A stretch of 64,000 nt of DNA from Trichobilharzia szidati (Eukaryota; Platyhelminthes; Trematoda; Strigeidida; Schistosomatidae). The stretch spans positions 62,717,564 to 62,781,563 of the forward strand of contig OX235279.1 in NCBI GenBank assembly GCA_944472155.2. The letters run 5' to 3'. The notes beneath the pieces were generated by a model. That model saw nothing but the letters and a program-made list of their open reading frames with translations. It was not told where the DNA came from and made no database searches. Below are positions 22,170 to 53,752 of this stretch, piece by piece (position 1 is the stretch's first letter; each line of letters starts with the position of its first letter). A program made the translations under genes and the position numbers.

Positions 22170-23050
22170 TGACTCCATTATGGATAAGATTTTATTTTGA
22201 TAAATCACACAGCGCTATACAGTAATATTAATTCATGACGTTTCGAGGACAAACTATTGCTCATAATCATATCAGTTTACTAACACAACTTTTTTCTTTC
22301 ATTTTATACATTAGTGGAGTTGATTAGCTATTGGAATAAAAATCAGTATAGAATAATGTACATTCAGAATTAATATTATGAGTGTTATTGATCAATTACA
22401 ATCAGATGGGAAATAAGACGAGTGTTTTTTATAGTCATAATAAGTAACTTTTTAGAATGTTATGATGTACTTGAATTGGAATAGAATTGTAAGATTATTT
22501 ATTATCCTCCTCTGACATGACTGGTGGTAATAATATCTTCCATATCTCTGGTATTTGCATTGAGTCATTTCTGTTGCATGTGTTGGATGTAGACTGAGTG
22601 AACTAGGATTCAGTGATCAATCTCCCTCTCTCCACCAACATAGATTACTTATTAGAATTTTAACCCTCTCCCACCCTATTGTTTGATTGTGTGTTAATGC
22701 ATGCAGCGCAGTCGCTGAGCGTTTTCTAAATTACTTATCTTCTCGGGGTCAACCATTCTTACCTTAGCTAAATTCTTATGTTCCGACAATCTGACTACCC
22801 CCGATCTACTAGTTTGACCTATATAGTTGACCTCACAGTCATTGCAAGGTATTTTTATTGATTTTATTCAAATGTCTAATCAATTCCACTCATGTATCAA
22901 ATGAAGGAAAAAAGTTTTGTGAGTACCTTGATATGATTATGAGCAATAGTTTATGCTCGAAACGTCATCAGTTAATATTACTGCATAACACTATGTGATT
23001 TATCAAAATAAAACCCAATCTGTAATACAGTTATACTCTATCACAGCGCC
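22170..23050 (-). mobile_element. Penelope-like foldback A (inverted arms around a GIY-YIG remnant)
   Basis: 881 bp bounded by a perfect 13 bp duplication. The left arm (about 22175-22540) and the right arm (about 22860-23040) are inverted copies of each other. Between them, about 22640-22860 on the minus strand matches the GIY-YIG endonuclease C-terminus of foldback B (IPCNDCEV, SEHKNLAKVRMVD, EKISNLEN). The reverse transcriptase is absent. Both arms contain a GAGCA...TGCTC hairpin followed by GAAAC-GTC, a hammerhead-like motif. It is a deletion derivative that would depend on a full Penelope-like element to move. Confidence 0.85.
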
Positions 23051-23063
23051 GAAGCTAAAGGTA
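23051..23063. repeat. Target-site duplication of foldback A (right)
   Basis: An exact copy of 22157-22169. Confidence 0.88.
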
Positions 23064-23385
23064 CTTTTGAAAGAACTTTTTCCTCTGGGATCATTTTCAA
23101 CCCAATGACAAAATACAATCAAAATCTAATGAAGTCAATTAGAAAATAAGGCTTTCGGTTGGTAGTACAAGTTAAAGGTTGTGTATAGGTCACACAGTAA
23201 ACATAGCACCACAAATCCACACGAACTCCTAGGGAAAACGCATTCGCATTATTTATCTTAAAAAAGAAGTGAGGGGAATTATTTACCGCCGCAGCACACT
23301 CTCATTCTATTGGGGTCGTGAGAGGCGTACTACTAAACCAATGAGAAGTCAAACTTGTCCTATTGGGCCTGATCGTCCAGCTATG

Positions 23386-23667
23386 CTAATCTGTCATTTG
23401 TGAATCGCTTTGTTGATGTTCGTCTTTTGTATCTCGCGCTTTGTTTGCCTCTTGTCCAGTGCCCGTCACACCGAGAAAACAAAACAAGAATGTTGAGACT
23501 ATTGTCAAAAAAATGTACCAAAAATAATTTTTAAAATTGGAAAATACATGTTCCAAGCGGAAAATATGATGTCGAAAAACAACTTTTGTAGCGGGTGTTT
23601 CACGCAAAGCCACAAAAATTTGTTTTTGATGCGCTATGCAATAAAAAATAATCTATACACATGAAAA
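23386..23667 (-). pseudogene. Open frame with a membrane segment downstream of Gypsy pol
   Basis: An open frame of about 90 codons without an ATG. It contains a hydrophobic stretch YFWYIFLTIVSTFLFCFLGV followed by a Lys/Asp/Gln-rich tail ending SDSQMTD. It lies between the integrase remains and the 3' LTR-like start, where some LTR elements carry a third ORF. Nothing else identifies it as envelope-like. It may be chance. Confidence 0.25.
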
Positions 23668-23779
23668 GTGTACCACAATAGTGATACATAGATTTCTGAA
23701 ATAAAAAATGGGTGTGTCACTTTTGTTCTATTATAAAAGACAAGTATGATGGTGTTCTTGGAATCTCACAGCTCACCCA

Positions 23780-25330
23780 GAAAGCTTTGTACTTTGTGTC
23801 TCGATGGAGGGCTCGGTTGTCACTTTCCGCGCAGATTGTTTCTCCAGGGATTAACGGGTATTCAGTCATCTGCGTATAATTTGGAATGCTTGGTTAGAGG
23901 TTAGTGGGACTGCCTTCTAAGTAGTTGGGTTTCACACGATAGATACCAATGGAGTCTTCGCAGTCGGAAGGGAGTAGGTTTAACTGAACCCATTGCGTTT
24001 TTAAGTCTGCTGACCTACAAGGAGTGAGCAGATACAGGGTGGAAAACTTTCAACTGGCAGTGGTAACACTGTTGCATATAGAAGCTCAGCAGGAGTACAA
24101 CCGCCATCAGTTTTCAAGGCTTTTCGGATGCCGAGTAGGACTAACGCCAATGGTACAGCCTAATTTACAGCGTTCGCGGCTGATAACCAGGTGTTTAACT
24201 GTCGGCGTAATTGTTATACCATACTATTTGCTTAAGGGTGGTGGGCTGTTATTCTAAGACACATATACCGAGGATTTTACTCAAGGTGAAGAATAAACCG
24301 CTTTCGAACTGCCGCCCGCCATCAGCTGTTGTGGAGGATGGGCATCCAAAATTTGCGGTCCATCATTTTACAGAGACGCGTGTGACCGTTTCAGCAGATA
24401 TCTCTCCGAGGAGTAGTGCTTTAGGTTGACCGTGTGATACTGTCATTGCAGGTCAAGATATAGGTATATCAACGGGATTCTGGGAGGGGTCCAACTAGAT
24501 CTACACGAATGTGTTCGAAACGGGCGTCAGAAGTAAGAAAGGTGCCAAGGGGGCTCCTGGTGTGTTTCGATACCTTGCACTTTTGGTAAGCTCAGCACTT
24601 ATGAGCCCATTCCTTTCTTACTAACATCAGACCGATAAAACCGACTAGTAATGCGCTTGACGGTGGTTCGAATACCTGGGTGAGATAAGTCATGCAACGT
24701 ATTGAAGCCGTGACGACGATACATTTCAGGCACGATGGGGCGAGGAGTTCTCATGGAAATGTCACATAGAATAGTGTCTCTTCCTATGCCTAAGGGTTTC
24801 TCAGCTAACTTCAGAGTTGTTTTCCGCAACTCACGTTGGATCTCGGTATCTTCTTTTAGAAGACGAGCCAGTTCCACAAGGTCTATGCCATCTATTTGGA
24901 CAAGGGAACAAGTGCGCAACAAGGCATCTGCCACAGTGTTGTTCAATTCGGATACCTGGCGAATATCCTGTGTGAACTGTGAAACGCAGTCCAATTATCC
25001 TGATTCCCTTGGTGAATATTTATTTGAAGTTTACTTCAGAGAGTAACTGAGAGGTTTGTGGTTAGTGAAAATTATGGAGTCAGGGCCTTCCGTTGAGTGT
25101 TGGAAATGGTGTATAGCGCTGTACATATTTCGAAGCTCCCTGTCTGATGTGCAGTACTTTACCTCTGCTAACTAAAGGCGTCTCGAGAAAAGGGAGAGAT
25201 ATTGCCAGTTGTCAATGACGAACTATTGCATAACTGCGCCGATCGCAGTGTCGGATGCATCAAGCGATACTTGACGGTGCCGTTGGATATTGATAAATAG
25301 GTAGGGCGGCATCCTCAATGGCTTTTTTGA
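23780..25330 (-). pseudogene. Gypsy RNase H and integrase, decayed
   Basis: Minus-strand blocks in order are: 'SDASDTAIGAVMQ' (RNase H, near 25240); 'HTGYSPG' and NNTVADALLRT at the end of RNase H; then an integrase zinc finger HGFNTLHDLSHPGIR ... SRFYRSD within 24599-24994; then 'FEHIRVDLVGPLPES' (integrase core, near 24500), 'TADGGRQFESG' (near 24330) and scattered C-terminal pieces. The core is full of stops. Confidence 0.8.
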
Positions 25331-25384
25331 ACTGAACGATAGCATTTTAGGGGACGCGTTGAAGTGAAAGGAATTGTTATGCCA

Positions 25385-26296: not shown

Positions 26297-26361
26297 GTTG
26301 GGGTATACGTAGATGATGTCTTGATAGACGGCCTAGTAGTACTGTCTATCAGTCGTTTTCG

Positions 26362-26598
26362 TCAGACGTCTACGAGTAAATCATGATGACTGAGTAGGTC
26401 CGTGCCAATGATGGGCACTGTGACGTCAGTGAGAAGGAAAATCCACTGAATAGGTTTGCGTAAAACTGCGTTCAGATAGACGTATTTCCTACTAAGGGTT
26501 GCAATAGGTTTTCCATTAGCAGACTGTAAATGGAAGGTAGATTCCTTCCGTTGACATGCCCTTTTCGCCGGAAGGACGCTGACTTCGACACGTCTCAA
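26362..26598 (-). pseudogene. Gypsy aspartic protease, C-terminal part
   Basis: Minus-strand frame with SVLPAKRACQ near the start, FHLQSANGKPIATLSRKYV in the middle and DVTVPIIGTDLLSHHDLLVD near the end; IIGTDLL is the conserved hydrophobic-G-D/A block of retrotransposon proteases. The catalytic DSG lies upstream in a broken frame. It is separated from the RT frame by stops around 26300-26360. Confidence 0.8.
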
Positions 26599-27129: not shown

Positions 27130-27495
27130 TAACTTCTCACATTCGTGCCATCATATGTGCCGCCGAGTGATTACTCAGTCTGACATTGCGGAACAGTTCA
27201 TCAAGGCTCTGTCGATCCGTGAGATCGTTACACTTAAGGAGGCGTGCTTTAAGCATCTCGAGGGGTCGGCTTAACTTTGGGTTGAACACTTGCCAAGTAA
27301 CGCATCTACTTAACCTCCCCGACGAAGCGCAGAGAGCAGTAAGGGACTTTGAACGTCGGTCAGTGATTCCAAGTTCACTGAAATCAGATTCAACTATAAC
27401 CATGCTTCTACACTCTCTGGTCAAAATGGCATGAGTTGAAAGGTGGTGCTAGTTGGCTGGATAGGGATGAGTTCAGGCGTATGATCACTCACTGT
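27130..27495 (-). pseudogene. Gypsy gag fragment
   Basis: Frames on the minus strand read SVEAW near 27425, then LGITDRRSKSLTALCASSG, CVTWQVFNPKLSRPLEMLKA and DRQSLDELFRNVRLSNHSAA, the capsid-type order of schistosome Gypsy gag. The likely original start near 27495 is GTG rather than ATG (VSDHTPELIPIQPTSTTFQL), and a TGA interrupts the N-terminal part. Confidence 0.75.
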
Positions 27496-27604
27496 TAAAT
27501 AGATATTTAGAATATAGTAAATATAGCTCAAGAGAAAATACAAAATGGAACGAACTCACCAGATTTGTTTAACAAACTTGAATTTCGTGGTAGGGCTCAC
27601 CGGT

Positions 27605-27956
27605 TTCGAGGGTGATTGTGTTGACGTTCATCGATAGTACGGCGTATACCGATGCAAGATTGTATACCCACAGCTCCTGTAGTATTAGTCCCGTATATAC
27701 CAAGGACAAATGAAAACACCAGATTGATCGTCCAAAATACGAAATGTATTCCGGGACCAAAATCGTAATGCGAGGATGATTGCTTAATTATCTACAGATC
27801 GTGCACGAACAACCGAACGTAACATGAAAGTGTCAAGTGGCGTGGATACTTGACCGAGAGTCTTCAACTAAACAATGCGACTTAAACAGTGAGCGTCAGC
27901 ATCCAGTGTTGAGTGATGCATGTTGTAGGCTAATAATTTTGGGGGATTATCAAACA
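27605..27956 (-). repeat. 5' LTR of the Gypsy element
   Basis: It aligns along its length with the solo LTR at 28576-28912. Shared blocks are the start (TGTTTGATAATCCC here), CACTCAACA..GGATGCTGAC, CTCACTGTTTAAGTCG, TTGGTCCCG-AATA and CGTACT-TC-GCGAACGTC near the end. Gag begins about 110 bp downstream. Confidence 0.75.
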
Positions 27957-28575
27957 CTATAACAGTCTCACTGCATAATTAATAGGTTTTTCACCTCAAG
28001 GAAAACAAATGTTTCTGAAACCATGAGAAACAGTATAAAGTTGAGATTCCGAAATACCTCAAATCTGAAAGAATAATGGCTCAAACTTCGGAATAATTTT
28101 AAAGGATAGCTGGTATTTTTGTTCTGGTATTCTTCGTGTCCACCTCTAAACTGTCAAAAATGAGTTTACATACATTTCGCAGTAGTTGGTTAGATTCTTT
28201 ATTTCTGAAAGACTCCCTCCGCTTGTTACAGAACTGAAACTGAGAGAGAAAGCAATTTCGATGGCAGAGTATCTTATTTGGGACTGTTTTTGTCATATGA
28301 CTGCTATTACTTTATCCTAATTTCTTGTAAGCATCTGACAAAATAAATCACAACAAGTGAAATTAAATTTCTTTTAAACTGACAACTTAATCACCCATTT
28401 CGGTAGACAGGTGAAGCAATTCTCTACACCGTTATCATTCAGGCTATTATTGTTTCTTCTTTGAATTCCTAGTGAAAGATGGGGCTTTAGCAACAGTTGA
28501 CAGGGTTCTATGTCATTACTTTTAGTTAAAATGAAGACTGTTCATAAGCTTTTGTTTTCTTAGTGTTTCACTACT
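27957..28575. other. Spacer between Gypsy LTR and solo LTR
   Basis: AT-rich, no gene recognised. Confidence 0.4.
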
Positions 28576-28912
28576 TTAGAGGCTGATGGTATCGACGTTC
28601 GCGGACTGTACGGAGTATACTAACGCAAGATCTAATACCAAAAACTTCTGAGGTATTCGTTCCGCGTAGACCAAAGGCAAAGCAAAACAACAAATTTACG
28701 AGATATATTTCGGGACCAAAAAGTATTGCGAGATGATTGCTTAACTGGCTGGTGATCGTGCATGAACGTGACACGACTGAGTACCGAATGGCATGGATGC
28801 TTGACCGGAAGCCTTCAGCTAAACAAGTCGACTTAAACAGTGAGGGTCAGCATCCAATGTTGAGTGATGATTGCTGTGGTCAATAATTTTAGGGAATTAT
28901 TTACCGCTACAC
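28576..28912 (-). mobile_element. Solo LTR of the same Gypsy family
   Basis: 337 bp beginning TGTAGCGGTAAATAATTCCC on the minus strand, flanked on both sides by CTACT (28571-28575 and 28913-28917), a likely 5 bp target duplication. No gag or pol adjoins it. Confidence 0.75.
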
Positions 28913-29754
28913 TACTATTACATTCCTTTAGGATTACAAAAAGTGAAAACTGTATGAAAGTACTTATAAATCACGATAAATGCTATCTGTTAAACTATAA
29001 CTCAAATGACACTTTTCTTGTATTTTTCGTGTAGATTTGGGTTGCACATTTTCCCTTATACTGCACCAGTAAGACGCAGAAAGTTGTGAAAAGTTTATTA
29101 TGAGAGAGTTAAAATGAATTTTTCAGCCAGTTAATTATATTTCGACTGCTTATACACAAAATCCACTTTCTGAACTAAACGTTTCAGTCAGTCCGAAATG
29201 CCCCAAAATAACAATTCAATAATTTTCATTACACAATGTATTATTCATAGATAAAAGTGGTAAGATATTAAGGAAAACAAATAAGGTCATGAGGAAATGG
29301 CTGAATGCACGTAGAATGTTTATCGCATTAACTTTCACATACAACACAAGAGTGAAGTGTTATGATACTCTACTTTGAAAATAATATATTTTCCGAAAGA
29401 TAATTATGAGGTAAGTATGAAAACTTCTTGATAAACAAGCTTCTAATCTGAAATGCCTTTTTTTTGATAATACTCGAAAATATGTCCGTAAAAATCGATT
29501 TCATTTCAAGTTAACTAACAGCAGCTAAAGTGGGTGCATGAATAATATGTAGGAATGTCTACTAAGAGTTCAGTGGGGATTTAAATTTACTACAAAGAAA
29601 ACGAAAATTAAAAAGTAATGCATTGAGAATCGTTAATGAAAACTTCTTATAGGACAGTATTCAGCTTTATTAAAAAAAATAAAGATATTTGCTGTGTCGG
29701 TCAGTTAATTAAATCCATGCGCTCATGTTCAACATATGTATGATTTACTTAGCG
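28913..29754. other. Unannotated intergenic sequence
   Basis: Very AT-rich; no gene, repeat or element recognised. Confidence 0.45.
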
Positions 29755-29962
29755 AAAACAGTATTTATTTATTTTTTTAAATTTTGATTACAGCTTGATG
29801 CCACACCGTATATTCAGTTCAAGTATGGAATTTTCAGCATGGATATCGGTAGCCCAAATTTGCAGGCCGACCATAGGTATCGGGTGTGCGTCGGCAGGGA
29901 ATCGAACCCCGGACCATGTGCACGGTTGGCGACAGTCCTAACCACTGTGTCACCGACGCACC
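29755..29962 (-). mobile_element. tRNA-derived SINE, type 2 body
   Basis: The minus-strand head GTGCGTCGGTGACACAGTGG is followed by a B box (GGTTCGATTCCC) and CCGACGCAC, a tRNA-like unit able to act as an internal RNA polymerase III promoter. The body (GCAAATTTGGGCTACCGATA and so on) differs from the RTE-related body of the other SINE copies, and the tail is AAATAAATAAATA. It shares only the head with the copies at 34409, 44352 and 54657. Confidence 0.7.
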
Positions 29963-32754
29963 ACAACTATCACAAACGTTTTTGAGTTCCTCCAGCTTAC
30001 AGTACAGAAGGAATGAAGAAAATCAGTAGAAATAAGGGAACAGAAATGGTTTTAAATTTTTCAGGGAGAGTTTTGAAAGTGCTAACATTAGAACTATAGC
30101 ATAAGTGTAACTAAAAAAATAAAAACCAGATACCAGATAATGTCCCCAAATTATGTGTGGTTGTGTCAGAAATACATCTTACGCCTAACATCAACTTATG
30201 TTCCTCCTAAATATAGTTCGTATTTTTGTAATAATTGTATGTGCCAGTTGTCTTCGGTAGTGTTACTTAAAATGCCGTTTCAAGTGTTAGATCTGATTAA
30301 TGGCGAATTTTAACAATAGCTAGTTAGTCTCAGTTAAGTACCTACCATCTCATATTCACGACGTGGATTTTCATTACTTTCTTAAGATGTTTTTATGATG
30401 GCCGTATTATTTCTACCTATAGCTTTAAAATAACCTTAATCGTGATTTTACTGCAATTTAGAAAAAAATATTCCATTACTTAACAAAAAATTTAGTGTAA
30501 TCTGTGTCCTATTAATTCATTTGACACAGTTTGTAGACTTCTTAAGCATAATTTCGATTGCTGCGGTTAATCTGACAAGTCGCAGGGACTATTCTTTCGA
30601 AATTGTGTCCATAAAATAACCCACCACCAACCAACTCCCAAATTTGGTGATTTCAGGTGTAATCAGAGATGATCTGTGAAGATGCAGGAGATACGAAATG
30701 CATATTGCATGAGAATAAAGACGCACTATATGAAGCAATATACTTTCACGTTATTTCTTTTTTCACACTGTAAATCTGTCTTTAACTACCATGGAATCTT
30801 CAGATTTTCCCTTGACCATATGTATTGCTAACCGGTCAACCAAAGGGTTGAAAAAGTTCTGATATAAACAGTTAAGTGAGACACAGTCTTCCAATGAATC
30901 GAATCTATATTACAAGTACATTTATCAACTGAAACAATTCTAGTGATTTATGGCATATTTTCGTTGTTTTCAAGTTTTTTTCTAACTCTCTTTCTGTTAC
31001 ATCTATTCTCTCAGTTTCAGTTAAACAGACATTTTTTAAGGAAATCATTTCTAGAATGGACTATGCATTCTTCACAGAATGCCATGTTTTATCCATATAA
31101 TGAGCCTTGAAGATAAACTCCGAAACAACCATAAGTAAAACAGTATTTTTCTCGCCTGTAGCATAATGCTGTACACAACACCTTCTGCAACCATCACTGC
31201 TGACAGTTATACTATGTTATTGTGATGAACATTTAACGTTTTCAGGTGAGAAAGCACCCCACATACTTAGGTTTTATTTGAAAGTATCTTATCCAGTATT
31301 CTAGCTAATAAAAGTAGATGAGTGACACTATGAACAATAAGGTCAGTAAACCAATAAATCATATGATTACAGTGTTCAGAGATTATGAATTTAGAAGGAA
31401 CTTGAAATCCTGAAAAGATATTTAAACTTTTACTTATTTAGTAAATGTATTCTGACTAGAGAAATCTCTGAAAATCCTTTATTTTTATCAGTGAATTCAA
31501 AAATAATTGTGCATATTTATCACTCTACAAGTACAGCATAGCTTCATATTACTTGGCATCTTCTTCGGAGGAGAATCTTTGGTGTTCTGATACAAAGTTT
31601 ATAAGTTCACTGAATTTCTTTTCTGCCAGCTACACTCAATTTTGATTTAATGGAGATTAACCATCTGGTGGTGGATATATTTTTAACTTAGAATAAACCG
31701 ATTAAACAACCAGGAACACAACGTGATCCTCTGCCGTGACTGGCTAGCTTTCTACCACTGAACCACTGAAAATTCATTGTTAACAACGAAATCACTATTA
31801 CAACCTAAAGGTTTTACTTTTATCTAGTTGCAAAGTATGATATTATTACCAATAAATGAGACACACACACACAAATACAAGCTACTGAATACTCAAAAAG
31901 AAATACTATGTCATAATTCATTTCCAAAATGAGACTTATATTCCCATATGTTTTGAACCAGGACCTGTTTACACTTTATAACTTCAGTGTTACAGTTAAC
32001 ATCTAAGAGACATTGAGATGAACTGGACCTTTATTAGTTAGACATCACACCACAGTGAAAAGGAAAGGAAACAGATCCTAACTAGCGTCCCAGGTAAACA
32101 GTTAAGTAAGGCTGGTGGTAATAACAAACAACAAAACAAAAGTACCAGAAAGTGTAAAATGTCTCATTTGCCATAACTGCTTACAACAATAGAGACACAG
32201 ATACTATAAAACTAGGAATTGACGAATAAACACTCTAATACTATCTGAAGATTATGAGTAGAGAAACACTTAAAAGATATCTCGCTATTCGTGGATATCA
32301 TTGTTTCGAAGAGATCTTAGATACATACTCCTCTTTTTCTGTATTAGTATAATCAGACTCTGAAATTGTAAATACAATGAGCACCCAATTTATGAGTATT
32401 AAATCAGGAGATGAGTTGTAAGGAAATACTCAGATAGAAAAGGATAAAACTTATCGAAACCTGAAGGGAGTAATTATTTCTTACATAGCATAAATAACAA
32501 ACCAGATCCACACTAAATACTCGATTGTAATGTAGACAATCGGTTCACTCCGTTTCACAAAAATATTTGTTATACTTTACAAAGCATACATTTATCATTA
32601 CTCGGAGTTTTTGACTTCTTCAAGCTCCAAAAGCAGTGAATTGATTAGAACTCATTAATTCTTATGCGAAGCACTAACCAGAGAGGAAATCACTTGAAGT
32701 CCCTACTTATATTTTAAGTTTTAGGACGTGTATCCGTCTTTCAGGTGTAGTTGT
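29963..32754. other. Unannotated intergenic sequence
   Basis: AT-rich with no recognised gene or element. Confidence 0.45.
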
Positions 32755-32941
32755 GTTCTCTGACCTGGATGATTTACCGGCGAAGTTTTCATGGCCTTAC
32801 TAGGAAACGTCCTCAGCGCATACTTCAATTTGAAGGGAAGTGGAGAAATTAAAAAGCTCATTTCAAACTGAAGTATACACTGAAGATGTTGCCTAGTAAG
32901 GTGATAAAAGCTGTGCCAGTAAGCCATCCAGGTCAGAGAAC
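32755..32941. repeat. Imperfect palindrome, 80 bp arms
   Basis: 32755-32834 and the reverse complement of 32862-32941 are about 80% identical, separated by 27 bp. Both arms begin GTTCTCTGACCTGGATG. The transcript would fold into a long hairpin. Origin unknown; it may be two inverted copies of a dispersed repeat. Confidence 0.7.
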
Positions 32942-34408
32942 ATAGCGACACCGAAATCATTTATTGACTACAGATCTTCTCTATTATATTTATCAGTCTT
33001 CTTTCCACAAAAGTGACATTTTAAGAATTACTTTAGTAATTTGGAAATTTCACTTTACATAGATAGAAAAAGCAACCAATTAGGCGAAGAAATACGTTCT
33101 TTTTCAGTTAGTCTTTCAACACTGATATATAGTTTTATATCAAAATTATACCAATCACGTGACTATTTTGGACCAAAGTATGGGGGTGTGGTGAAAATGA
33201 GAGATTAGAAATCATCAAAACAATTAACTAGTAGATGTTAGCAAAAAGATATCTAAGTTTTGAGAGAGGGGTGAAAGTAATTATGGAGTGCAAGATCAAT
33301 TAATTCGCAGGGGTTGGCAAAAAGCTCTGATACAGTTAATGATTTGTAAAATAATTATTACTAAAATGAATAGATGAATGGGTTACTTAATAATGCCAAG
33401 ATACAAATAAGTCGATTAAATTGTCTGGAACAGTAATCATAATAAAACAATGCCAGATGATAGTTAACAGGATAGGGGAAAATCATTTGTAACAAAACTC
33501 CATACATGTTGCTTGGATGGTCACGGCAAAGAAAGCGGCTTTACAAATTTCTTTTGAACACAGGTCTAACTTGCTTGAGTGAATTCCGATTGCCTCTGCT
33601 GTATTTAAAAGTTGTAGTTATACAGCATAAGAAAAGTTATGTGAAATACAGTAAAAAAATTTAAAAGTCTTGTCAGTGTCGACTTGACATTCTGCATCGA
33701 CAAGATGAGGTAGTATTTAGCTGTGTATCGCTTCCTTCGGTCCTCTGCCTTACCAAAATAGACGGTGTTCAGCAATTCAGACGCCCAATTTAATCACTTT
33801 AAACATAATAAATGATACTGGACTACTGGTTTACTTCTTGATAGCTTCATGTCTCCTATGAACTATAAATATTTGGTACATTTTGAAGTCAATCGATTTG
33901 TTTGCAGAAAATTAAAAAAAAACAAACAAGTAACAGGCATTAATACAGTAGGATTCAGTGAATTCATCATATTTCGGTAGAACTCCTCAGCTAAACACTC
34001 TGTACACGGTCTTATATGTGCTACGAGACATACATAGGTTAATATATGAATAATAAATAAACTGCAGTGAATTAGCCATGCAAAACGAAAGATGACAATT
34101 TTTTACAGATAAAATTCAGATAGATAGAGAGAGAGGGTGGAATGAGTGTGGAAGAAAATTAAGATTATCACGGATTACGGTTTAGTTACTTCTTCATAAT
34201 AAACAATAGTTTGTCGGTGAAAGGACTTGAAAATGTTAGAAATTGCTAGATGGTTAGTAATAATGAACATAAAACGATTTAATATAATGTTGTTGACAAA
34301 AGATATTTTCAGATGAGATAGTAATAATAATAATAATAATAAGAGATGGAATGGGAAAAAAGTAATAATGACTGTTGGGCAGTAAAAGACATCACTATGG
34401 TACATTCC
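32942..34408. other. Unannotated intergenic sequence
   Basis: No gene recognised; a short GATA/GAGA-rich stretch occurs at 34120-34135. Confidence 0.4.
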
Positions 34409-34491
34409 GTGCGTCGATGGTTCAGCAGTAGAATGCTCGCCAACTACACACGTGGTCCAAGGTTCAATCCTCGGCCGACACACTTCTAAAC

Positions 34492-34502
34492 TCCTCTAAG
34501 CC
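34492..34502. repeat. Target-site duplication of foldback B (left)
   Basis: TCCTCTAAGCC; the right copy at 35651-35661 is TCCTCTTAGCC (10 of 11). Confidence 0.82.
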
Positions 34503-35650
34503 TCCATTATGGATAAGATTTTATTTTGATAAATCACACAGTGTTACACAGTAATATTAACTGATGACGTTTCGAGCATAAATTATTGCTCATAATCATA
34601 TCAAGTTACTCACACAACTTTTTCCTTCATTTATATACATATGTGGAATTGACTAGATATTTGAATAAAAATCAATATGAGATAATGTACATTCAGAGAT
34701 AATAATATGAGTGTTATTGATCAAATACAGTTAGATAGGAAATAAGACGAGTGTTTTTATAGTCATGGTAAATAACTCGTTAGAATGTTGTGATTTGCTT
34801 AATTGAAACAGAATTTTGAGATTATATACTATCCCCTTCTGATTTGACTGGCGGTAATAATATCTTCCATATCTCTGGTATTTGCATAGAGTCATTTTTG
34901 TTGCATGTGTTGGATGTAGACTCAGTGAACTAGGATTCAGTAATCAATCTCTCTCTCCACCTACATAGATTACTTCTTAGAATCTTAACCCTCTCCCATC
35001 CTATTGTGTGGTTGTGTGTTATTGCATGTAGTGCAATTGCTGAGTTGTTTTCTAAATTACTTATCTTCTCGGCGTCAACCATTCTTACCTTGGCTAAATT
35101 CTTATGTTCCGACAATCTGATTAACCCCGATCTATGTAGTTGACTTACCTCACAGTCATTACAAGGTATTTTGTAAATTATATTATTTTGTTTAATTGGG
35201 TCCACCGGGTCTTTAACCTACAAAGCTCAATGCAAATACCAGAAATATGGAAGATATTATTACCACCAGTCAAATCTGAAGAGGATAATAAATAATCTCA
35301 AAATTCTATTTCAATTAAGCAAATCACAACATTCTAACGAGTTATTTACCATGACTATAAAAACACTCGTCTTATTTCCTATCTAACTGTATTTGATCAA
35401 TAACACTCATATTATTATCTCTGAATGTACATTATCTCATATTGATTTTTATTCAAATATCTAGTCAATTCCACATATGTATATAAATGAAGGAAAAAGT
35501 TGTGTGAGTAACTTGATATGATTATGAGCAATAATTTATGCTCGAAACGTCATCAGTTAATATTACTGTGTAACACTGGGTGATTTATCAAAATATAATC
35601 TTATCCATAATGGAGTTATACTCTACCACAGTGCCCAAGTTTTACACTTA
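34503..35650 (-). mobile_element. Penelope-like foldback B with GIY-YIG domain
   Basis: 1148 bp. Inverted arms of nearly 400 bp (34503-34900 and 35230-35640) flank a minus-strand GIY-YIG endonuclease region. The arms end in CTCCATTATGG / CCATAATGGAG, the same termini as foldbacks A and C. Each arm holds the GAGCA...TGCTC hairpin followed by GAAAC-GTC. There is no reverse transcriptase, so it is non-autonomous. Confidence 0.88.
34930..35205 (-). pseudogene. Penelope-like GIY-YIG endonuclease fragment
   Basis: 91 codons: IIYKIPCNDCEV at residues 9-20 (the CCHH-type zinc/GIY lead-in), then a degraded QLHRSGLIRLSEHKNLAKV where intact elements have Y-I-G-Q-T-x-R, and finally HAITHNHTIGWERVKILR, the end of the domain. 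Loss of YIG and missing RT mean no independent activity. Confidence 0.8.
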
Positions 35651-35787
35651 TCCTCTTAGCCTGTAGTAAAGCTGGTTGGGAGTGGGGTTAGTAACCGCAC
35701 CCCGTAAAAAAATAAAACCACTGCTACTGAAACTTCAAAGCCCTAGCTTGAAGCCCTATGTCCCACTCAGAATATAAGGGAATAAAA

Positions 35788-36198
35788 TTAAAGTAAATAT
35801 AATATTGGTAGATTCGAAGCGATCACTATTTCCTTCTGCATACAAAGTCCAGGTTTAAAAATCCTGATTTAACAAGCCTCTGCTATTGCAAGCATCTTAC
35901 TGTTTGTTTTTCTGCTGACAACAGTGAATGACTTGACAGAAACAACATGATGTCTGTGGTACATGAGATGCTTTGTACCTTCAGCTCTTTTCAACCATTT
36001 GAACAAATGCTCTTTCATGTAAGTCGACAGTCGTCTTTCCGTGCAACCAATGTACTTGCTTCCACAAATATACTCAAACAGTTATAAGCAGTTGGAATAA
36101 TCGAAGACTGGTAAGGAGTCTTTTGCCGAATGCTGGAGCATCCACTTGGTAGTGTGAAAGTATATAAGTTTTCGTTTAACTATTCTTGTGCATCATGT

Positions 36199-36251
<53 letters not shown>

Positions 36252-36669
36252 TATATACCTTTCTCTGTGGAACATTTGCTTTTTTAACAACTTAATTCCT
36301 ACTTACGAAACTTAAACATCCAGCTTTTTATTACCTACAAACAGTTGTGAAAAACTGAAGTGATGATGTGCAAGAAAAAGATTCCACTGGAACCTTTTGA
36401 CAGGTAGAGTTCAGTACAGTTTTTTTTTGCTCAACAAGTAAAAAAATAGTACGTAGTCATCTGTCAGATGAAGCTGCAGAAAATACATATTTTGACATAT
36501 ATCAGCCAATCATTTTAGAGAGTAACAGCTACTTCTAATTGGTCCGTTAAATGTGAACTACTGGCGAATTTTGAAACCACACCCTAACTTCAAAAATCTG
36601 AAATATTATTCTGTTCTTAATAAAACAGTAAAATCACCTTGTAAACACAGTTACTTCTTTGTTACAGAA
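35788..36669. other. Upstream region of the TIPE gene
   Basis: Contains the TA repeat (36201-36258). An acceptor-like TTCTTTGTTACAG ends at 36667, two bases before the ATG. It would serve either a 5'UTR intron or spliced-leader trans-splicing. The open frame extends upstream to 36553, but its first 39 codons resemble nothing in TIPE proteins. Confidence 0.5.
36201..36258. repeat. (TA)n microsatellite
   Basis: More than 20 TA units with one interruption near 36246. Confidence 0.95.
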
Positions 36670-37299: not shown

Positions 37300-37313
37300 T
37301 GTTAGAAACAAGA

Positions 37314-37319
37314 AATAAA
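37314..37319 (+). terminator. Polyadenylation signal of the TIPE gene
   Basis: AATAAA 15 bases after the stop codon, with a run of A at 37337 downstream. Very short 3'UTR if used. Confidence 0.55.
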
Positions 37320-42015: not shown

Positions 42016-43504
42016 GTAGTATTAGTAGTTAAGTCTTTCGTTGGAAATAGGTAAATTAAAAACCTTTAGTTTATTCTAAATTAGCACAAAACTAGAAATA
42101 TCATGCTTCATATGCAAATGGGTACACTGATACACCATGAAAGTGTCTGTGTGAGCTCTTGTTCATTCCAACTACTATAAAGATAGATTACTTTTTCTTG
42201 TGCAATCATCGTGACATTCAGCACTCAATGCACATAAGTGGCATATTTATGACTAGTCTTTTTCAGTTGGTTTTAAAAAAAATGTATGAAGATAGAAAAA
42301 AAGGTGGAATTTCAATGACCATGTATCATCGTACAACGGGACAAAGAGTATAGCATTTATAAATTAAAATGGAATAACACTTTGTATTATTTTCATAAAT
42401 TACTTTTAGTCTATCTCAGACAGATTATGATACAGGCTGTTGAAATCCTCAAAAACCATCGACTTTTTGTTTACATTCTAATAGCAAAATTGAAAAACAC
42501 GGAAAGAAAAGTGTATAATATTATAAAAAAAATAAGTAAATTTTAAATCTCAGAAGGGATATGAGTTCCTTCAAAGTTGCAGATACGCTTTGCTGATGAG
42601 TGCCAGCTAGCACGAAACCTAGGTCCAAGGCTTCCTGCCGATTGTCTCCAACAAATTTTCCTTGAACACGCAATGCTGGTGACTCATCGGTAATGTAATA
42701 ATCAGAACTAAGAGTATAACGTACTTTACTCCTTAGGGAAAAAAGGGATAAATAAACTTCGAAAACATGATATAATCACTGTTATGATCTGTGTGAGGTA
42801 GTATATATATATATATCATATGGTGCTTAAGCTATTGGGTGAAATCAAAAACGGGAAATTTAAGTCCATTAAAAATTCAAGCAATCTAGAGTTCAATATT
42901 TAAAAACTTATTCTGCTGGAATGCATCCTCGAAAGCAGTACTTTTTTTCGTAGTAAATTCAAGCGGTAAACGAAAAGTAGGATAAAAAGTACACGTAAAA
43001 AGCATAATAAACAGTAATTTTATATGGGGCGTGGCGAAAAGTTTATTTCACTGAAAACAAAATTATATATCTGGGAAAAGAAATGATTATACGGTGCGAT
43101 ATTTTATGTTGCCTAGGTGATAATAAAAATTAGTAAATAAGGCTTCGGATTATAATATTCATTACGACTGATTACTTAACAGACTTGGAGAAGACAATGG
43201 TAGTAATTGGCAAATGTTGTGAATAATTTGAGAAATGATGTGGTAACTAAAGTGTCGTTGTCACACTAGGAAAATATCCTTAAAGCCAACTTCAGGTGGA
43301 ATCAATTCTGGATTTCCTTCGAGTTACTAGGTTTCATATACGAATATTTTCTGCCAAGATACGTTAAGCTATATTGGTTCGAAATGAACAGAATGAGTAA
43401 ATTTTCGAACAGTTATGATATGACATAGTATATCCTCCAGCTGCAGTTATACTTACTGGACATGGATCAGAAAACAGTTAGTAAGCCAAATGAGAACTAC
43501 AGTT
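42016..43504. other. Unannotated intergenic sequence
   Basis: Nothing recognised except a short TA run at about 42801-42818. Confidence 0.4.
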
Positions 43505-44605: not shown

Positions 44606-44610
44606 CACGA

Positions 44611-48835: not shown

Positions 48836-49509
48836 CATAGGCTCCAAGCCTTCTATCCTCAACCAATAAATCTGAAATCTGAATCACAAACAAAACGTTG
48901 AAAGAAATAGCAAAGGTGATTAGACATATGAAAGAAGTAACTGGTAAGTCAAAATGGCTTGAAATTATGACAAATGTAATATACCTAGGATATATGGCAA
49001 GATAAGACTGCATAAAGAAGGATATCCGATAAGACCGATTTTAGAAACACACAAAAGTATATGCTGCCAAGATTTCTGTGAACGATACTAAGACCAATAA
49101 GAGACAACTCAAAAGCTAGGAGAATAGATTCATTTGAATTAGTGAGACGACCAAAAAACACTCAAATAGACGAAGAGGAAATACCAGTCAGCTTTGATGC
49201 AAACAGTCTCTATACTGAAATACCCATTCAGATGGCCATGAATGCACTGAAAACTAGACTAAAAGAAGAAGATGGCCTAAAAGACAGGACACAGTTATCT
49301 GTAGAAGAGATAATAAAAGGGGTTGAATTCTGTCTAACAACAACATATTTTACATTTCAAGTAAAAGCATATGAACAAAATGAAGGAATAGCTATGGGAT
49401 CGTCCATTTCACCAATAATAGTTGACATATTCATGGATTTTTGGGAAGGGAATGCACTTAAACCATTCAGGTTATCAATAAAATGTTGGTGGAGATAAGT
49501 AGACGGCAC

Positions 49510-49812
49510 GTTACTAAGGCCCAGACATCGCCGAAGCATTTCCACAAGAAGCCGACATTTCAACCTGAGACCAAGCACTTCGGTCCAGTCAGTCGACGGG
49601 AAAATCCAAAATTGAATAAAATAATTAATATGACTCGTTGCACAAGAGGTGGCTCTCGTGGATAGCATTTTGGCGTTTGAAACTATGGACACTGGGTCCG
49701 AGTCTCAGTAGGAACATCATCACTCACTGCGGAATGCAGGTACATCCAGTGACAAGTCCCAAATAGAACGAAATGCGCACCCTGGGTTCCACTGCTAGTC
49801 ACCATCCACCAG
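49510..49812 (+). mobile_element. Sm-alpha-type SINE with decayed hammerhead
   Basis: Inserted just after the degraded RT catalytic motif. It contains a tRNA-like promoter: A-box-like GGTGGCTCTCGTGGATAGC near 49650, B-box-like GGGTCCGAGTCTC near 49694. A degraded hammerhead ribozyme follows and the element ends in CACCATCCACC. The part from about 49630 to 49812 is clear; the left boundary near 49510 is inferred from where the RT protein breaks off. Sm-alpha repeats with hammerheads are known from schistosomes. Confidence 0.7.
49739..49792 (+). ncRNA. Decayed hammerhead ribozyme (Sm-alpha type)
   Basis: The order is CATCCAG (stem I), TGACAA (core), GTCC-CAAATA-GAAC (stem II), GAAA, TGCGC (stem III), ACC (cleavage triplet), CTGG (stem I). 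Compared with the published schistosome consensus, the core CUGA(N)GA has lost its C and its last G is A, stem II has one mismatch and the cleavage triplet GUC is ACC. It should be inactive. Confidence 0.75.
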
Positions 49813-50414
49813 TTAACTTCCAAAAAGAACGATGCTGAGAAATTCTTCTCACACATACACGGTCATTTATACTCAATAAAATTCACTATGGAAATAGAGA
49901 ATGAAACTGGAGAACTGCCTATGTTAGACTGCAAAGTACAAAGAGTAACAGATGACAGCATAAAAACGACGCTATATAGAAAAACTACACATTCTGGGAG
50001 ATTCCTTGATTATCATTCAGCTCATCTACTCACGGTAAAACGAGGGTTAATACAAGGTCTTGCAGATAGAATACGTAGACTTACAACAACATCAGATGAC
50101 TAGCGTCAAGAAATAAACGTCCTATTCAAAATGTTACTCGACAACAACTACCTAAAAGAATTTATCAGAGATAATATAAAGAAGAGGGTAAAACCAGAGA
50201 ATGACAAGAAGGAGGAAGGCAAAAAAACAGTCACAATACCGTACAAAAATGGTACATCAGAGGCAATTAGAAGAAACCTCAAGAATATTGGGATTAGCAC
50301 CACGTTTAAACCAACGAATCTAATTAAAAAATAAATCAACTGAGAGATAAAATAAAAATGATGGATAAAAATAATGTAATTTACAAAATATCTTGTGCCG
50401 AGTGTCAGACTAAA

Positions 50415-50424
50415 TATGTGGGTC
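50415..50424. repeat. Target-site duplication of foldback C (left)
   Basis: TATGTGGGTC, repeated exactly at 51058-51067. It encodes the Y-V-G of the GIY-YIG motif of the host element. Confidence 0.88.
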
Positions 50425-51057
50425 CAACTCCACTATGGATAATATTTTATTTTGATAAATCTGATGACATTTTGAGCACAAACTATTGCTCATAATCATA
50501 TCAAGTTACTCACACAACTTCTCCCTTCATTTATATACATGTGTGGAATCGATTAGATTTGCGAATAAAAATCAATATAGGATAATGTACATCCAGAATT
50601 AATAATATGAGTGTTACTGATCAATTACAATCAGATGGGAAATAAGACGAGTGTTTATTATTACCACCAGTCAAATCACAGGAGGATAATAAATAATCTC
50701 AAAATTCTATTTCAATTCAAGCACATCACAACATTCTAAAAAGTTACTTATTATGACTATAAAAAATACTCGTCTTATTTCCCATCTGATTGTAATTGAT
50801 CAGTAACACTCATATTATTAATTCTGGATGTACATTATCCTATATTGATTTTTATTCGCAAATCTAATCGATTCCACACATGTATATAAATGAAGGGAGA
50901 AGTTGTGTGAGTAACTTGATATGATTATGAGCAGTAGTTTGTCCTCGAAACGTCATCAGTTAATATTACTGTATAACACTGTGTGATTTATCAAAATAAA
51001 ATCTTATCCATAATGGAGTTATACTCTACCACAGTGCCCAAGTTTTATACTTATATC
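50425..51057. mobile_element. Penelope-derived foldback C
   Basis: 633 bp made almost only of two inverted arms (about 50425-50655 and 50760-51057) round a spacer of about 100 bp. The arms match those of foldbacks A and B, but no GIY-YIG region is left. The left arm lacks about 25 bp present in the right. Both arms keep the hammerhead-like hairpin plus GAAAC-GTC (altered on the left to a TCAAAATGTC form). Confidence 0.87.
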
Positions 51058-51290
51058 TATGTGGGTCAAATGTCCAGATCACTCAACATAAGAGTGAATG
51101 AGCATAAACGCCTGACTAAAGGTCATCCAACAGGAACACAAGCTTACAACAATTTAGAAAAAAATTCGCCTACAGCTGCCCATGCATGGGACAAAAATCG
51201 CAATATTGATTGAAACAATGTTTGTATTCTGAAATCTAATATGAACAAATTGAAAGAGAAAGATAATTTCAAACAGTTGGCATGATGATG
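51058..51290 (+). pseudogene. Penelope-like GIY-YIG endonuclease, second half
   Basis: Reads IYVGQMSRSLNIRVNEHKRL, then NLEKNSPTAAHAWDKNRNID, and ends KEKDNFKQLA before a TGA. These are the YIG, R...EH and terminal helix parts of the domain. The first half (VIYKISCAECQTKYVG) is at 50354-50424, on the other side of foldback C. A hammerhead-like remnant follows the stop: ATGATGA, GGGCA...TTGCTC, GAAAT at about 51282-51325. Confidence 0.8.
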
Positions 51291-51299
51291 GGCAGTAAA

Positions 51300-51807
51300 T
51301 TTGCTCGAAATATTACCAAAAACAGAAACTTATCGTTGTGTGTAAACTAATGAAATATAATTATACTGTATTTATCACTGACGATGAATTTGGCTACTTT
51401 GAGAAATTTTACAAGCTCCTAGAGAAGTTGACAGAAAAAAATAACAAGAACTGGACATTCACAAACTTCAATAAAAGCAGTGTGCTTCAACTTCAGATTG
51501 AGAAAATTGGATAAAGGTGACAGTGAAAACTGACAAGAAAGTTGAAGATTAGAAATCACTGTGACAGATAAATAAAGATAGTTTCAAAATATACGATGGT
51601 ACACATTCTGATTGATACTACTGCAACACCTTAGTTCAGCATTATGACTGCATATTATCAAAACGCTCTTGAAAACAAAAAATGTGATGATATTAACAAC
51701 AACAGAACCAAGGATAATTTAGATGTGTATGTGGAAATGTAATGCACTGAAGTTTCATTTTCAAACTTACTAAAACACTGAATAAAAGACTCAGAAGATA
51801 ATGACAA
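51300..51807. other. Unannotated sequence after the Penelope-like element
   Basis: AT-rich; may still include 3' sequence of the element. No gene recognised. Confidence 0.4.
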
Positions 51808-51821
51808 TGAACTAGTAATTG
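51808..51821. repeat. Target-site duplication of the SINE dimer (left)
   Basis: TGAACTAGTAATTG, repeated exactly at 52529-52542. Confidence 0.85.
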
Positions 51822-51878
51822 GTTACAGGATTTCATCATGAGCTGACATTGGTTAGAGAACCATTGGAAAACCTGGGA

Positions 51879-51924
51879 GTACTGGACAGCTGTTTCGTCC
51901 TAGTTTGGAATTCTTCAGCAGTAC
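51879..51924 (-). ncRNA. Hammerhead ribozyme motif, core intact
   Basis: Minus strand: GTACTG (stem I), CTGAAGA (core, matches CUGANGA), ATTCC-AAACTA-GGAC (stem II, UCC/GGA pairs only), GAA, then ACAGCTGT (very short self-pairing stem III), C, then CAGTAC (stem I, perfect 6 bp). All conserved core bases are present and the cleavage triplet is GUC. Stem II is weaker than in the partner copy at 52396. Confidence 0.8.
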
Positions 51925-52096
51925 GCACCCATGGGGATTCGAACCCAGGACCTTCTGGTTACAAGGCGAGCTCGTACACCATTAAGCCACCGGGACCTGA
52001 TCCAATAGCCCATGAATTTTAACTTCTGCCAATTCACGATATAGCGCAACCGCTAGCAGCAGGTCAGGTGTGAGGACAAATACTCGCCGAAGACAT

Positions 52097-52245
52097 AAGA
52101 ATAAAACTTGGGCACTGTGGTAGAATGTAATTCCATTATGGGTAAATTTTTATTTTGATAGAGTCTCACAGTGTTATACAGTAATATTTACTGATGACGT
52201 TTCGAGCACAATTTATTGCTCATAATCATATGATATCATAATGGA
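52097..52245. mobile_element. Penelope-derived single-arm fragment D
   Basis: 149 bp flanked by a perfect 15 bp duplication ACTCGCCGAAGACAT (52082-52096 and 52246-52260). It contains the terminal GGGCACTGTGGTAGA...TCCATTATGG block and the GACGTTTCGAGC / TGCTCATAATCATAT hairpin of the foldback arms. It inserted into the spacer of the SINE dimer, so it is younger than the dimer. Confidence 0.82.
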
Positions 52246-52395
52246 ACTCGCCGAAGACATTGGCTAGCGGTTGCGCTATATCGTGAATTGGCAGAAGTTA
52301 GAATTCATGGGCTATTGGATCAGGTCCCGGTGGCTTAATGGTGTACGAGCTCGCCTTGTAACCAGAAGGTCCTGTGTTCCAATCCCGGTGGGTGC

Positions 52396-52441
52396 GTACT
52401 GATGAGGAGTCCCAAACTAAGACGAAACAGTTGTCCAGTAC
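52396..52441 (+). ncRNA. Hammerhead ribozyme motif, core C changed
   Basis: Same layout as the inverted copy: GTACTG, ATGAGGA, GTCC-CAAACTA-AGAC, GAA, ACAGTTGT, C, CAGTAC. Here stem II is nearly complete but the first base of CUGANGA is A, and one stem II pair is lost. This copy is probably inactive; the two copies have different defects, so the parent very likely had a canonical hammerhead. Confidence 0.78.
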
Positions 52442-52528
52442 TCCCAGGTTTTCCAATGGTTCTCTAACCAATATCAGCTCATGATGAAATCCTGTAACCA
52501 ATCAACCAAATCCCTACAAACCAGTACT

Positions 52529-52542
52529 TGAACTAGTAATTG
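52529..52542. repeat. Target-site duplication of the SINE dimer (right)
   Basis: An exact copy of 51808-51821. Confidence 0.85.
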
Positions 52543-53202
52543 TTATGTCATCACCAGTTTGCAAGTTATAGTTTAACTTTAATATGTTTCAGTTCAGTTT
52601 CATGGTAGAGGTGTGAGATTAATGAGTAAGATCGATGTGAATGCTTATATAAATAAATATTGATCTCTATTAAGAAACAATCCTCTTAAATTAGCCTTCT
52701 ATTTTTCAAAAAAAACACTGAATATACTCCTTAAATTCTAGATGACCAATTTCAACTGAAACAGGAAAAAAATATTTGTATTACATACAGTTGGTTTCCG
52801 ATGAATAAGATCGTTAACAGAGGAAGTTCAAAACGGACTTACATTTCACTTTACGATGTGGTACTTTGTGAGTACTGAAAAAACAGTTGGGAACTAGATT
52901 GATTAAAAAGGTACGGACGACAACTTAGACTTTAACTTCTATTGTCTAAGCAGCAGCCTTTCTCAGAAAAAAAACTTTGATAGATGTTTCAAAGTCAAAG
53001 CTTTAGTCGTTAGTCTTAAGTATCTGCAATAATTTATTGCAATTTCTGATGTGAAATATCACTATTGTTAAACTTCCACTAACATTCAAATGAACTGTCG
53101 TCAAGATTTGACCGAATAGTTCTAAAATATTTGGGCGCCGAGTGAGAAGTAGACATTTGTAAAAAATTATATTTGTAATATCTCAGCGATATTGAAATGA
53201 GT

Positions 53203-53252
53203 AATTCCACCGTTTCGTTCGGCAATCTGGTCCGAACTTCTTCAGGGAAATT
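53203..53252 (-). ncRNA. Hammerhead-like motif in foldback F, left arm
   Basis: Minus strand: AATTTCC (stem I), CTGAAGA, one extra A, GTTCGG...CCGAAC (stem II), GAAAC, GGTG, GGAATT (stem I). The base expected at the cleavage site is G rather than A, C or U, so self-cleavage is unlikely as it stands. Confidence 0.5.
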
Positions 53253-53650
53253 AATCAAAATTAACATAACAGAGGTTTTATGTATAAAAGGCACATCCTT
53301 TTGTTTTTAAAAACTTTGTCCAATCATGATTCATAAACACAAGTATTAACAAGTATAATAAACAATATTGTATGAGCTGTGATCAAAATTTGACCTCGGA
53401 CTTACAAATATTGGTCTACCTTTGTTAACCACTTTAAACGGAGTGTGCATGCGTGTGTGTGTAAAGTTGTAAAACATTTCTTAACGTCTCCATAGGAAGA
53501 TATAGACAGTCAGGAATTTGACCAAGTATTATTAATTAATTAGTGATACATATCCATATTTATTTATTAATCAGGATTTCCTATGCATCAGCTAACATCA
53601 AAAGGATGTGCCTTTTATATATAAAAACCTCTTTTATGTTAATTTTGATT

Positions 53651-53700
53651 AATTTCCCTGAAGAAGTTCGGACCGGATTTCCGAACGAAACGGTGGAATT
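53651..53700 (+). ncRNA. Hammerhead-like motif in foldback F, right arm
   Basis: The inverted counterpart of 53203-53252, with the same core, stems and unusual G at the cleavage position; only the stem II loop differs. Confidence 0.5.
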
Positions 53701-53752
53701 ACTCATTTCAATATCGCTGAGATATCACAAATATAATTTTTTCCACTAACAT

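Follow-up and report, generated by a model that had tools for sequence, protein, structure and literature searches.

A common head-to-head insertion pattern of Penelope-like elements and hammerhead SINEs in Trichobilharzia szidati suggests RNA copying into both cut DNA ends

Among hammerhead elements, the nearest to those described here are the metazoan retrozymes, with which the Smalpha SINEs (reportedly described by Ferbeyre in 1998) are ranked. In L1 twin priming, two primers act at one target and the 5′ part is inverted. Metazoan non-LTR retrozymes carry type I hammerheads and have small units with copies extending beyond one unit; their co-existence with Penelope-like elements (PLEs), their hammerhead type and the occurrence of tandem copies led to the proposal of a PLE helper (PMC7229834, PMC7761336, available text). 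The Pen families of Adineta vaga, as set out in the available part of PMC3846280, occur as tandem copies and with pLTRs inverted head-to-head, have flanking duplications of 8–10 bp in the described cases and may carry an optional 31-bp tail on one inverted pLTR; self-priming was proposed to take place on an antisense template. According to the available part of PMC11167929, the protein of the Anolis PLE Poseidon cuts and extends both target strands in vitro, with two internal RNA start sites behind the hammerhead, an optional tail between them and no difference in start site between the strands. The mode of PLE integration and the enzyme that moves animal retrozymes are open questions in this literature, as far as its available text goes.

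Five foldbacks (A, B, C, E and F) surrounded by direct repeats of 10–13 bp are real features of the window, the 64,000-nt stretch of T. szidati DNA that was analysed (Table 1). The inverted arms, the end repeats of 10–14 bp and the presence of at least three sequence families, all noted in the initial annotation, held up: inverted-repeat comparison gave arms 84–97% alike over 122–390 nt, and A, B and C form one family, E a second and F a third. The A/B/C-type insertion nested in the right arm of E was absent from that annotation.

Table 1. Features located in the window; S1 and S2 are the two positions at which outer ends of arms cluster
Feature	Position	Strand	Direct repeats	Arms	Outer ends (left; right)	Basis
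Element A, two-armed, putative PLE deletion derivative	22157..23063	.	22157-22169 and 23051-23063 (13 bp)	175 nt, 84% alike	S1; about 16 nt short of S2	inverted repeat, direct repeats, end mapping
Element B, A/B/C family	34493..35662	.	34493-34503 and 35652-35662 (10/11 alike)	390 nt, 97% alike	S1; S2	inverted repeat, direct repeats, ends, endonuclease-like piece
Decayed PLE (putative), approximate extent	48840..51320	+				RT piece 49082-49495; endonuclease-like pieces either side of C
One-armed decayed copy of genome-wide hammerhead SINE family H	49520..49816	+				84% to H unit; RF00163 31.3 bits, below cut-off
Element C, A/B/C family	50415..51067	.	50415-50424 and 51058-51067 (10 bp)	201 nt, 97% alike	S1; S2	inverted repeat, family comparison, direct repeats, ends
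Element E, hammerhead SINE foldback	51809..52542	.	51809-51821 and 52530-52542 (13 bp)	240 nt, 95% alike	S1; S2	inverted repeat, direct repeats, unit mapping
Hammerhead ribozyme type I, E left arm	51879..51924	-				Rfam RF00163, 46.5 bits
Nested A/B/C-type insertion in right arm of E (insert 52097-52246)	52083..52260 incl. repeats	.	52083-52096 and 52247-52260 (14 bp)	right arm about 15–25 nt	S2; S1	
Hammerhead ribozyme type I, E right arm	52396..52441	+				Rfam RF00163, 42.6 bits
Element F, two-armed, putative PLE deletion derivative	53074..53752	.	53074-53085 and 53741-53752 (12 bp)	122 nt, 96% alike	S2; S1	inverted repeat, direct repeats, end mapping

Of the five foldbacks, E alone matches Rfam Hammerhead_1 (cut-off 34 bits), and does so in both arms. 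The other four gave zero hammerhead matches even at E ≤ 5, so that none of them has covariance support for a hammerhead. The earlier claim of a hammerhead-like motif in every arm, for which a covariance-model check had been proposed, is thus confirmed for E and not for A, B, C and F. In A, B and C, a hairpin is followed by GAAAC and the core is degenerate by eye. Relatives of F carry, as read from the sequence, CTGAAGA, stem II and GAAACGTT; each arm of the window copy has GAAACGGT in place of GAAACGTT. Outside the foldbacks, the window has Rfam hammerhead matches at 42587–42631 (36.1 bits) and 49744–49787 (31.3 bits, under the cut-off). A regular-expression census of the window for CTGANGA-stem II-GAAA found one site, 42593, overlooked E and F, and is not used as evidence. 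The hammerhead SINEs E and H have type I hammerheads above the Rfam cut-off and a tRNA-like head seen by eye, and the two units are 326 and 396 nt; the Rfam tRNA model scores 20.0 bits on one E-like copy (cut-off 29), and ARAGORN found no tRNA in the window. Across the genome, 27 of 28 high-scoring hammerhead loci, picked regardless of structure, are head-to-head insertions with the ribozyme-bearing arm outward, a stronger link between hammerheads and foldbacks than had been claimed. Pairing of closest hits gave 6 divergent pairs among 74 hammerhead places; set against the 27 of 28 obtained on reading the sequence, such pairs alone understate two-armedness. Among 29 independent E-family loci, 20 are hammerhead copies without a foldback (L025, scored one-armed and included here, is ambiguous and retains scraps of an inverted arm); one of 26 H loci is one-armed, and 5 of 25 F loci are one-armed or ambiguous.

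We take A, B and F to be shortened PLE copies, with C assigned by kinship to A and B, and the RT (reverse transcriptase) elements of the genome to be PLEs, partly from sequence comparison and partly from general knowledge of the group. By two-sequence E-values, A and B match the endonuclease region of the genome's own PLE candidates, and the F unit resembles the PLE N-terminus together with C-terminal pieces. Endonuclease-like pieces lie on the minus strand in the spacer of A and in B (against the window PLE, 40% over 67 aa at a two-sequence E of 5e-12). C is inserted in the endonuclease region of the decayed PLE, whose RVT_1 match (17.2 bits) is under the cut-off and whose closest proteins are two from Trichobilharzia, one of them named reverse transcriptase. 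An open-frame relative has RT and GIY-YIG-like parts in a single frame; the RT is of RVT_1 type by its close proteins, the endonuclease part reaches 17.4 bits with Pfam GIY-YIG (cut-off 22.6), and RVT_1 and GIY-YIG occur together in 1 of 36 homologues. A genome search with Pfam GIY-YIG, in which 150 of 2611 candidates were scored, gave two places above the cut-off, and neither is among the PLE RT places listed. The C-terminal part of the PLE had no convincing match in the PDB (best E 0.091). Among the 150 RT places listed, open frames reach 809 aa and neighbours within 6 kb, counted by eye, comprise 8 divergent, 12 tandem and 0 convergent pairs, with tandem places spaced by about 2643 nt. On one side of the intact PLE (flank L090) the element stops, by eye, some 20 nt beyond the start codon, and its end on the other side lies outside the flank L091; the pLTR of L089 has no Rfam hammerhead match. 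A, B, C and F have inverted pLTRs with a flanking duplication. As these elements are probably shortened PLEs and inverted pLTRs are published PLE architecture (PMC3846280), the pairing of motif and palindromic unit, regarded as unusual in the initial annotation, is by itself no novelty.

The outer ends, in one arm as in the other, fall into two clusters on the H, F and E units, S1 about 33–67 nt and S2 about 94–157 nt past the hammerhead cut. Of 58 independent two-armed insertions, 52 combine one S1 end with one S2 end (H 23/25, F 19/20, E 7/9, A/B/C-type insertions of the window 3/4), and three more are nearly so. Against an even independent choice, the binomial P of this pairing is 1.6e-10, with the site ranges set after the clusters were seen. 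The near-misses, scored as failing the rule, are A, L075 (where the left end stops about 13 nt before the S2 cluster and a clear duplication is missing) and L078 (right end at least 5 nt short of S1); the exceptions are L055, with two S1 ends, and L026 and L037, with an outer end at a third site. Duplicate loci were merged (L009/L010, L071/L072, L087/L088, L040/L050, L041/L060, L043/L044, L047/L048 and L052/L053), and L009, L023, L051, L059 and L063 were classified by eye. Most two-armed loci have their two arms enclosed by a single pair of direct repeats. As scored with one mismatch allowed, the repeats are mostly 11–17 bp with a mode of 13 bp (19 of 44 tabulated); L075, L084, L046, L051, L059, L063, L009, L023, L026 and L037, with weak or script-missed repeats, are outside this table. 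Inverted pLTRs and a tail on one of them are already known for PLEs; the one-of-each rule as counted here, and its occurrence in hammerhead SINEs, appear to be new.

We consider it probable that the foldbacks are products of PLE retrotransposition, in which two-strand target-primed reverse transcription copies PLE remnants and, working in trans, hammerhead SINEs (retrozymes) as well. The PLE enzyme would make a staggered double cut, giving the duplication of about 13 bp, and each of the two exposed 3′ ends would prime cDNA synthesis at an internal site of the element RNA, S1 for one end and S2 for the other. The two cDNAs would extend toward each other and be joined at their stopping points, yielding arms placed head-to-head, whose 3′ ends and hammerheads face outward and whose inner ends vary; the foldback appearance would arise where the cDNAs overlap. 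Templates would be PLE deletion derivatives (A, B, C and F) and hammerhead SINEs (E and family H), and the RNA would often be circular or multimeric. This reading builds on what can be read from sequence alone, namely the architecture, the repeats, the fixed ends, the one-of-each rule, arms longer than one unit and PLE copies with long open frames. We infer from it that the PLE protein would act on SINEs, that a single RNA molecule or source copy may underlie both cDNAs, and that the template would be circular rather than linear multimeric. Among 50 mapped insertions (L069 of H, L055 of F, and L026 and L037 of E are left out), 17 have arms longer than one unit (H 8/24, E 2/7), so that the small units of E and H occur as multimers or circles; such arms point to circular or multimeric RNA templates. 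They agree with the earlier proposal that copying of self-cleaved or circular RNA gives rise to foldbacks, except that the fold need not form on RNA before insertion; the ends have the structure expected if cDNA is made from both cut strands of the target. More tentatively, and with rather more doubt than belief, two-strand integration may be obligatory for PLEs and hammerhead SINEs: a single circular or multimeric RNA would offer two start sites; each target strand would use one of them, each site would serve a single time, and the second polymerase would displace the cDNA made first. The foldbacks would then be the normal product, and the footprint would identify PLEs as the engine of animal retrozymes.

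Self-priming (snap-back), in which one cDNA folds back and copies itself into inverted repeats, is published for head-to-head PLEs given palindromes at inverted junctions (PMC3846280, available part), and it would fit the 16 of 50 mapped insertions in which the S2 arm covers the whole of the S1 arm. Private variants common to both arms would also fit, as they do the two-strand reading. Sharing of non-consensus variants between arms, within versus between loci, is 0.163 versus 0.045 in H (23 loci; reached in 0 of 2000 permutations), 0.151 versus 0.008 in F (12 loci; 0 of 2000) and 0.203 versus 0.029 in E (6 loci; 7 of 2000), with the two-armed loci L069 and L077 (H), eight F loci, and L023, L026 and L037 (E) left out; subfamilies or gene conversion could be another source. 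In 34 of the 50, however, each arm extends beyond the other's end (8 of these without any overlap), so neither is a whole copy of the other, which argues against the published self-priming model. That model also leaves unexplained the two fixed outer sites, one of each per insertion, and we regard it as improbable. Classical twin priming by LINE machinery, from one linear RNA with its 5′ part inverted and without true duplication, shares with our insertions two primers at a single target and an inverted 5′ part. It would suit the 8 insertions without overlap, the F loci L057 and L058, in which the S2 arm ends close to S1, and L026, which resembles a plain 5′ inversion. Overlapping arms in 42 of 50 mean that a stretch of the RNA was copied twice, and the second start is a fixed site; a LINE-type insertion with a non-overlapping inverted 5′ part and a random second start was rejected on these grounds. 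A LINE 3′ end, the D8 repeat and a tRNA-like SINE have no divergent pair within 6 kb (41, 40 and 40 hits listed), and twin priming is unlikely as the source of the foldbacks.

These control repeats gave 0 divergent pairs and 1 convergent pair, and the place lists of H, E, F and A/B/C gave 18 divergent and 0 convergent within 6 kb (by eye, full matches only; two A/B/C divergent pairs (C6) have equal spacing and may be one duplicated segment). Independent insertion of two neighbouring copies in opposite orientation might be expected where repeats are this abundant (1628 to 6361 first-look candidates), but the lack of convergent pairs in these lists and the single pair of direct repeats around both arms in most two-armed loci make its probability practically negligible. 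There is slightly more to be said for another enzyme moving the SINEs, the likeness to PLE insertions being convergence: many E copies are one-armed, and binding of SINE RNA by the PLE protein is a prediction. H, E, F and A/B/C nevertheless have similar duplication length, the same outward polarity and the same two-site rule, and we hold convergence to be a slim prospect.

Two-strand copying by a PLE enzyme remains our preferred reading: the head-to-head pattern common to PLEs and hammerhead elements suggests that this enzyme may copy RNA into both cut DNA ends and also move ribozyme elements. The insertions share head-to-head inverted terminal repeats, flanking duplications and tandem copies with the Adineta vaga Pen families as described in the available text, and differ in their longer duplications, in the one-of-each pattern as counted, which extends to hammerhead SINEs, and in the reach of each arm beyond the other. 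The available part of PMC11167929 describes no inverted insertion products for Anolis Poseidon; its two start sites show no difference between strands, whereas mostly one of each is used here, so the one-of-each rule is left unexplained by the in-vitro work. Like the metazoan retrozymes and Smalpha SINEs, as far as the available texts describe them, E and H combine a type I hammerhead with small units and copies beyond one unit; they differ in the tRNA-like head (by eye), the head-to-head insertions and the two fixed ends. The term "inverted" is absent from the available text of PMC7229834. The one-S1-one-S2 footprint offers a countable genomic test for PLE integration and for the mover of retrozymes; it fits the reported in-vitro two-strand extension and disfavours self-priming for inverted pLTRs. 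Of 102 ends examined (the left arms of H and, for F and E, inner or 5′ ends), 6 lie within 2 nt of the hammerhead cut where 1.07 would be expected (P 0.00065), which is only suggestive because F and E hold other inner-end clusters as strong, with 5 ends at F position 730 and 4 at E 197.

The five foldback insertions of the window (A, B, C, E and F) were recovered by an inverted-repeat search where the initial annotation had placed them. The direct repeats at their ends, described as 10–14 bp, are present on all five and measure 10–13 bp. BLAST of the arms bears out at least three sequence families, with C grouped with A and B in one family and E and F forming two others. Hammerhead-like motifs had been described in both arms of every foldback; Rfam supports this for E, where both arms match type I, and gives no support for A, B, C and F, where no Rfam hammerhead matched even at E ≤ 5.

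Further features of the window (RT, reverse transcriptase; H, the genome-wide hammerhead SINE family)
Feature	Coordinates	Strand	Details
Single hammerhead, outside the foldbacks	42575–42648 (match at 42587)	+	RF00163 36.1 bits; HH9 42.0 bits (cut-off 52); no match there to the H, E or F unit
Decayed one-armed H-family SINE within the decayed Penelope-like element	49520–49816	+	decayed hammerhead match at 49744; outside the foldbacks
A/B/C-type insertion nested in right arm of E	52083–52260		own 14-bp repeat; right arm very short
Twister-P1-like match	58179–58253	+	score 45.4 bits, under the cut-off of 67.2; the LINE-type open frame at 58400 lies about 150 nt downstream
Near-palindrome	32744–32952		91-nt arms, 80%; sub-threshold miRNA-model matches on both strands
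Older inverted pairs	9370–11767		71–76% complementary; span about 2.4 kb; adjoining LINE RT frame
Exon-like frame	36526–37299	+	TNFAIP8 domain, 165.8 bits

In the 1.11-Gb genome, RF00163 scored 74 of 368,299 first-look candidates. The 28 loci read, which were the first by list order, accounted for places 1–30 of the 74 and were chosen without regard to structure, belong to one SINE-like family, H, with a unit of 326 nt and, by eye, a tRNA-like head. An inverted arm adjoins the forward arm in 26 of them (BLAST); L077 is one further two-armed locus, with an inverted arm of 12 nt, and L081 is one-armed. Independent loci are two-armed in 20 of 25 cases for F and 9 of 29 for E. Hammerhead copies outside foldbacks are therefore rare among the H loci read and common in E. 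The four arm families gave 18 divergent and no convergent pairs among the best hits listed (divergent pairs per places listed: H 6/74, E 1/40, F 6/43, A/B/C 5/40). Three control repeats, a LINE 3′ end (41 hits), the D8 repeat (40, diverged) and a tRNA-like SINE (40), were the whole control set and, among their best hits listed, gave no divergent pair within 6 kb and, taken together, a single convergent pair plus a tandem partial.

The outer ends of the arms fall at two positions of the element RNA, S1 and S2. In unit coordinates counted from the hammerhead cut, S1 lies at about 33–48 in H, 48–58 in F and 63–67 in E, and S2 at about 147–157, 126–137 and 94–109, respectively; each may occupy either side of an insertion. 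One S1 and one S2 end are present in 52 of 58 two-armed insertions (H 23/25, F 19/20, E 7/9, A/B/C-type in the window 3/4). L078, L075 and A are near-misses with the ends in the right order, and the exceptions are L055, L026 and L037. In the last two, both of the E family, the inverted arm stops at position 192 of the unit, possibly a third start site or a plain 5′ inversion. The direct repeats have a modal length of 13 bp (19 of 44 tabulated insertions).

Several parts of the sequence evidence together point to a Penelope-like element (PLE) as the parent of A, B, C and F: the RT, a sub-cut-off GIY-YIG in the same frame, the domains of homologues and tandem copies. In two-sequence comparisons, the minus strand of the B spacer encodes a segment that resembles, at 40% over 67 aa, the endonuclease region of the decayed PLE in the window, and A encodes pieces similar to that region. 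The F unit contains one stretch that resembles the N-terminus in L089, at 31% over 39 aa, together with short pieces similar to those in L091. The window RT piece, used as a genome query, listed 150 places, where open frames were reported to reach 809 aa; neighbours within 6 kb among these, counted by eye, were 8 divergent, 12 tandem and 0 convergent. Close proteins of the candidate RTs carry RVT_1, and 1 of 36 homologues has both RVT_1 and GIY-YIG. L092, a copy on contig C3 (319 aa), has a GIY-YIG match in the same open frame as the RT at 17.4 bits, below the Pfam cut-off of 22.6. Five RT places lie in tandem on the same strand of contig C752 of this genome (G000; 27257–38242) with 2643-nt spacing. 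Counting against a PLE parent, the Pfam GIY-YIG search of the genome gave just two places, both outside the listed PLE places. PLE-type RT sequences have been reported from T. szidati (PMC4465651).

The arms overlap in 42 of 50 mapped insertions, and an arm is longer than one unit in 17 of the 50. Each arm extends beyond the other's end in 34 of the 50, which contradicts, for this genome, self-priming on an antisense template, the published account of head-to-head PLE copies (Discussion of PMC3846280). Private variants are commoner to both arms of one insertion than to arms of different insertions. As patterns read from sequence, overlap, overrun, arm length and shared variants are compatible with two-strand target-primed reverse transcription. 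A staggered cut in the target DNA would expose two 3′ ends, both priming reverse transcription, with starts at S1 on one target strand and at S2 on the other, and one RNA or one source would template both cDNAs. We infer that a single RNA may be used, with strand displacement and a circular template. The Anolis PLE enzyme reportedly cleaves and extends both strands and starts at two internal sites matching the genomic tail; in the available part of that work (PMC11167929) the start site shows no strand difference, so the one-of-each rule is left unexplained by it.

PLEs have been proposed as movers of animal retrozymes, small hammerhead-bearing retroelements, on the grounds that the two coexist and have type I hammerheads in common, and that tandem copies occur (PMC7229834 and PMC7761336). 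The word "inverted" is absent from PMC7229834, and no description of head-to-head insertion of hammerhead SINEs was found in titles or abstract starts among the literature matches listed. PLE copies with inverted pseudo-LTRs are the ordinary part of these results and are not new. The two-site footprint that hammerhead SINEs share with them, along with the evidence against self-priming, is a useful and testable addition. As for the other features of the window, the near-palindrome is perhaps a small inverted-repeat transposon, and the TNFAIP8-domain frame is likely a host gene.
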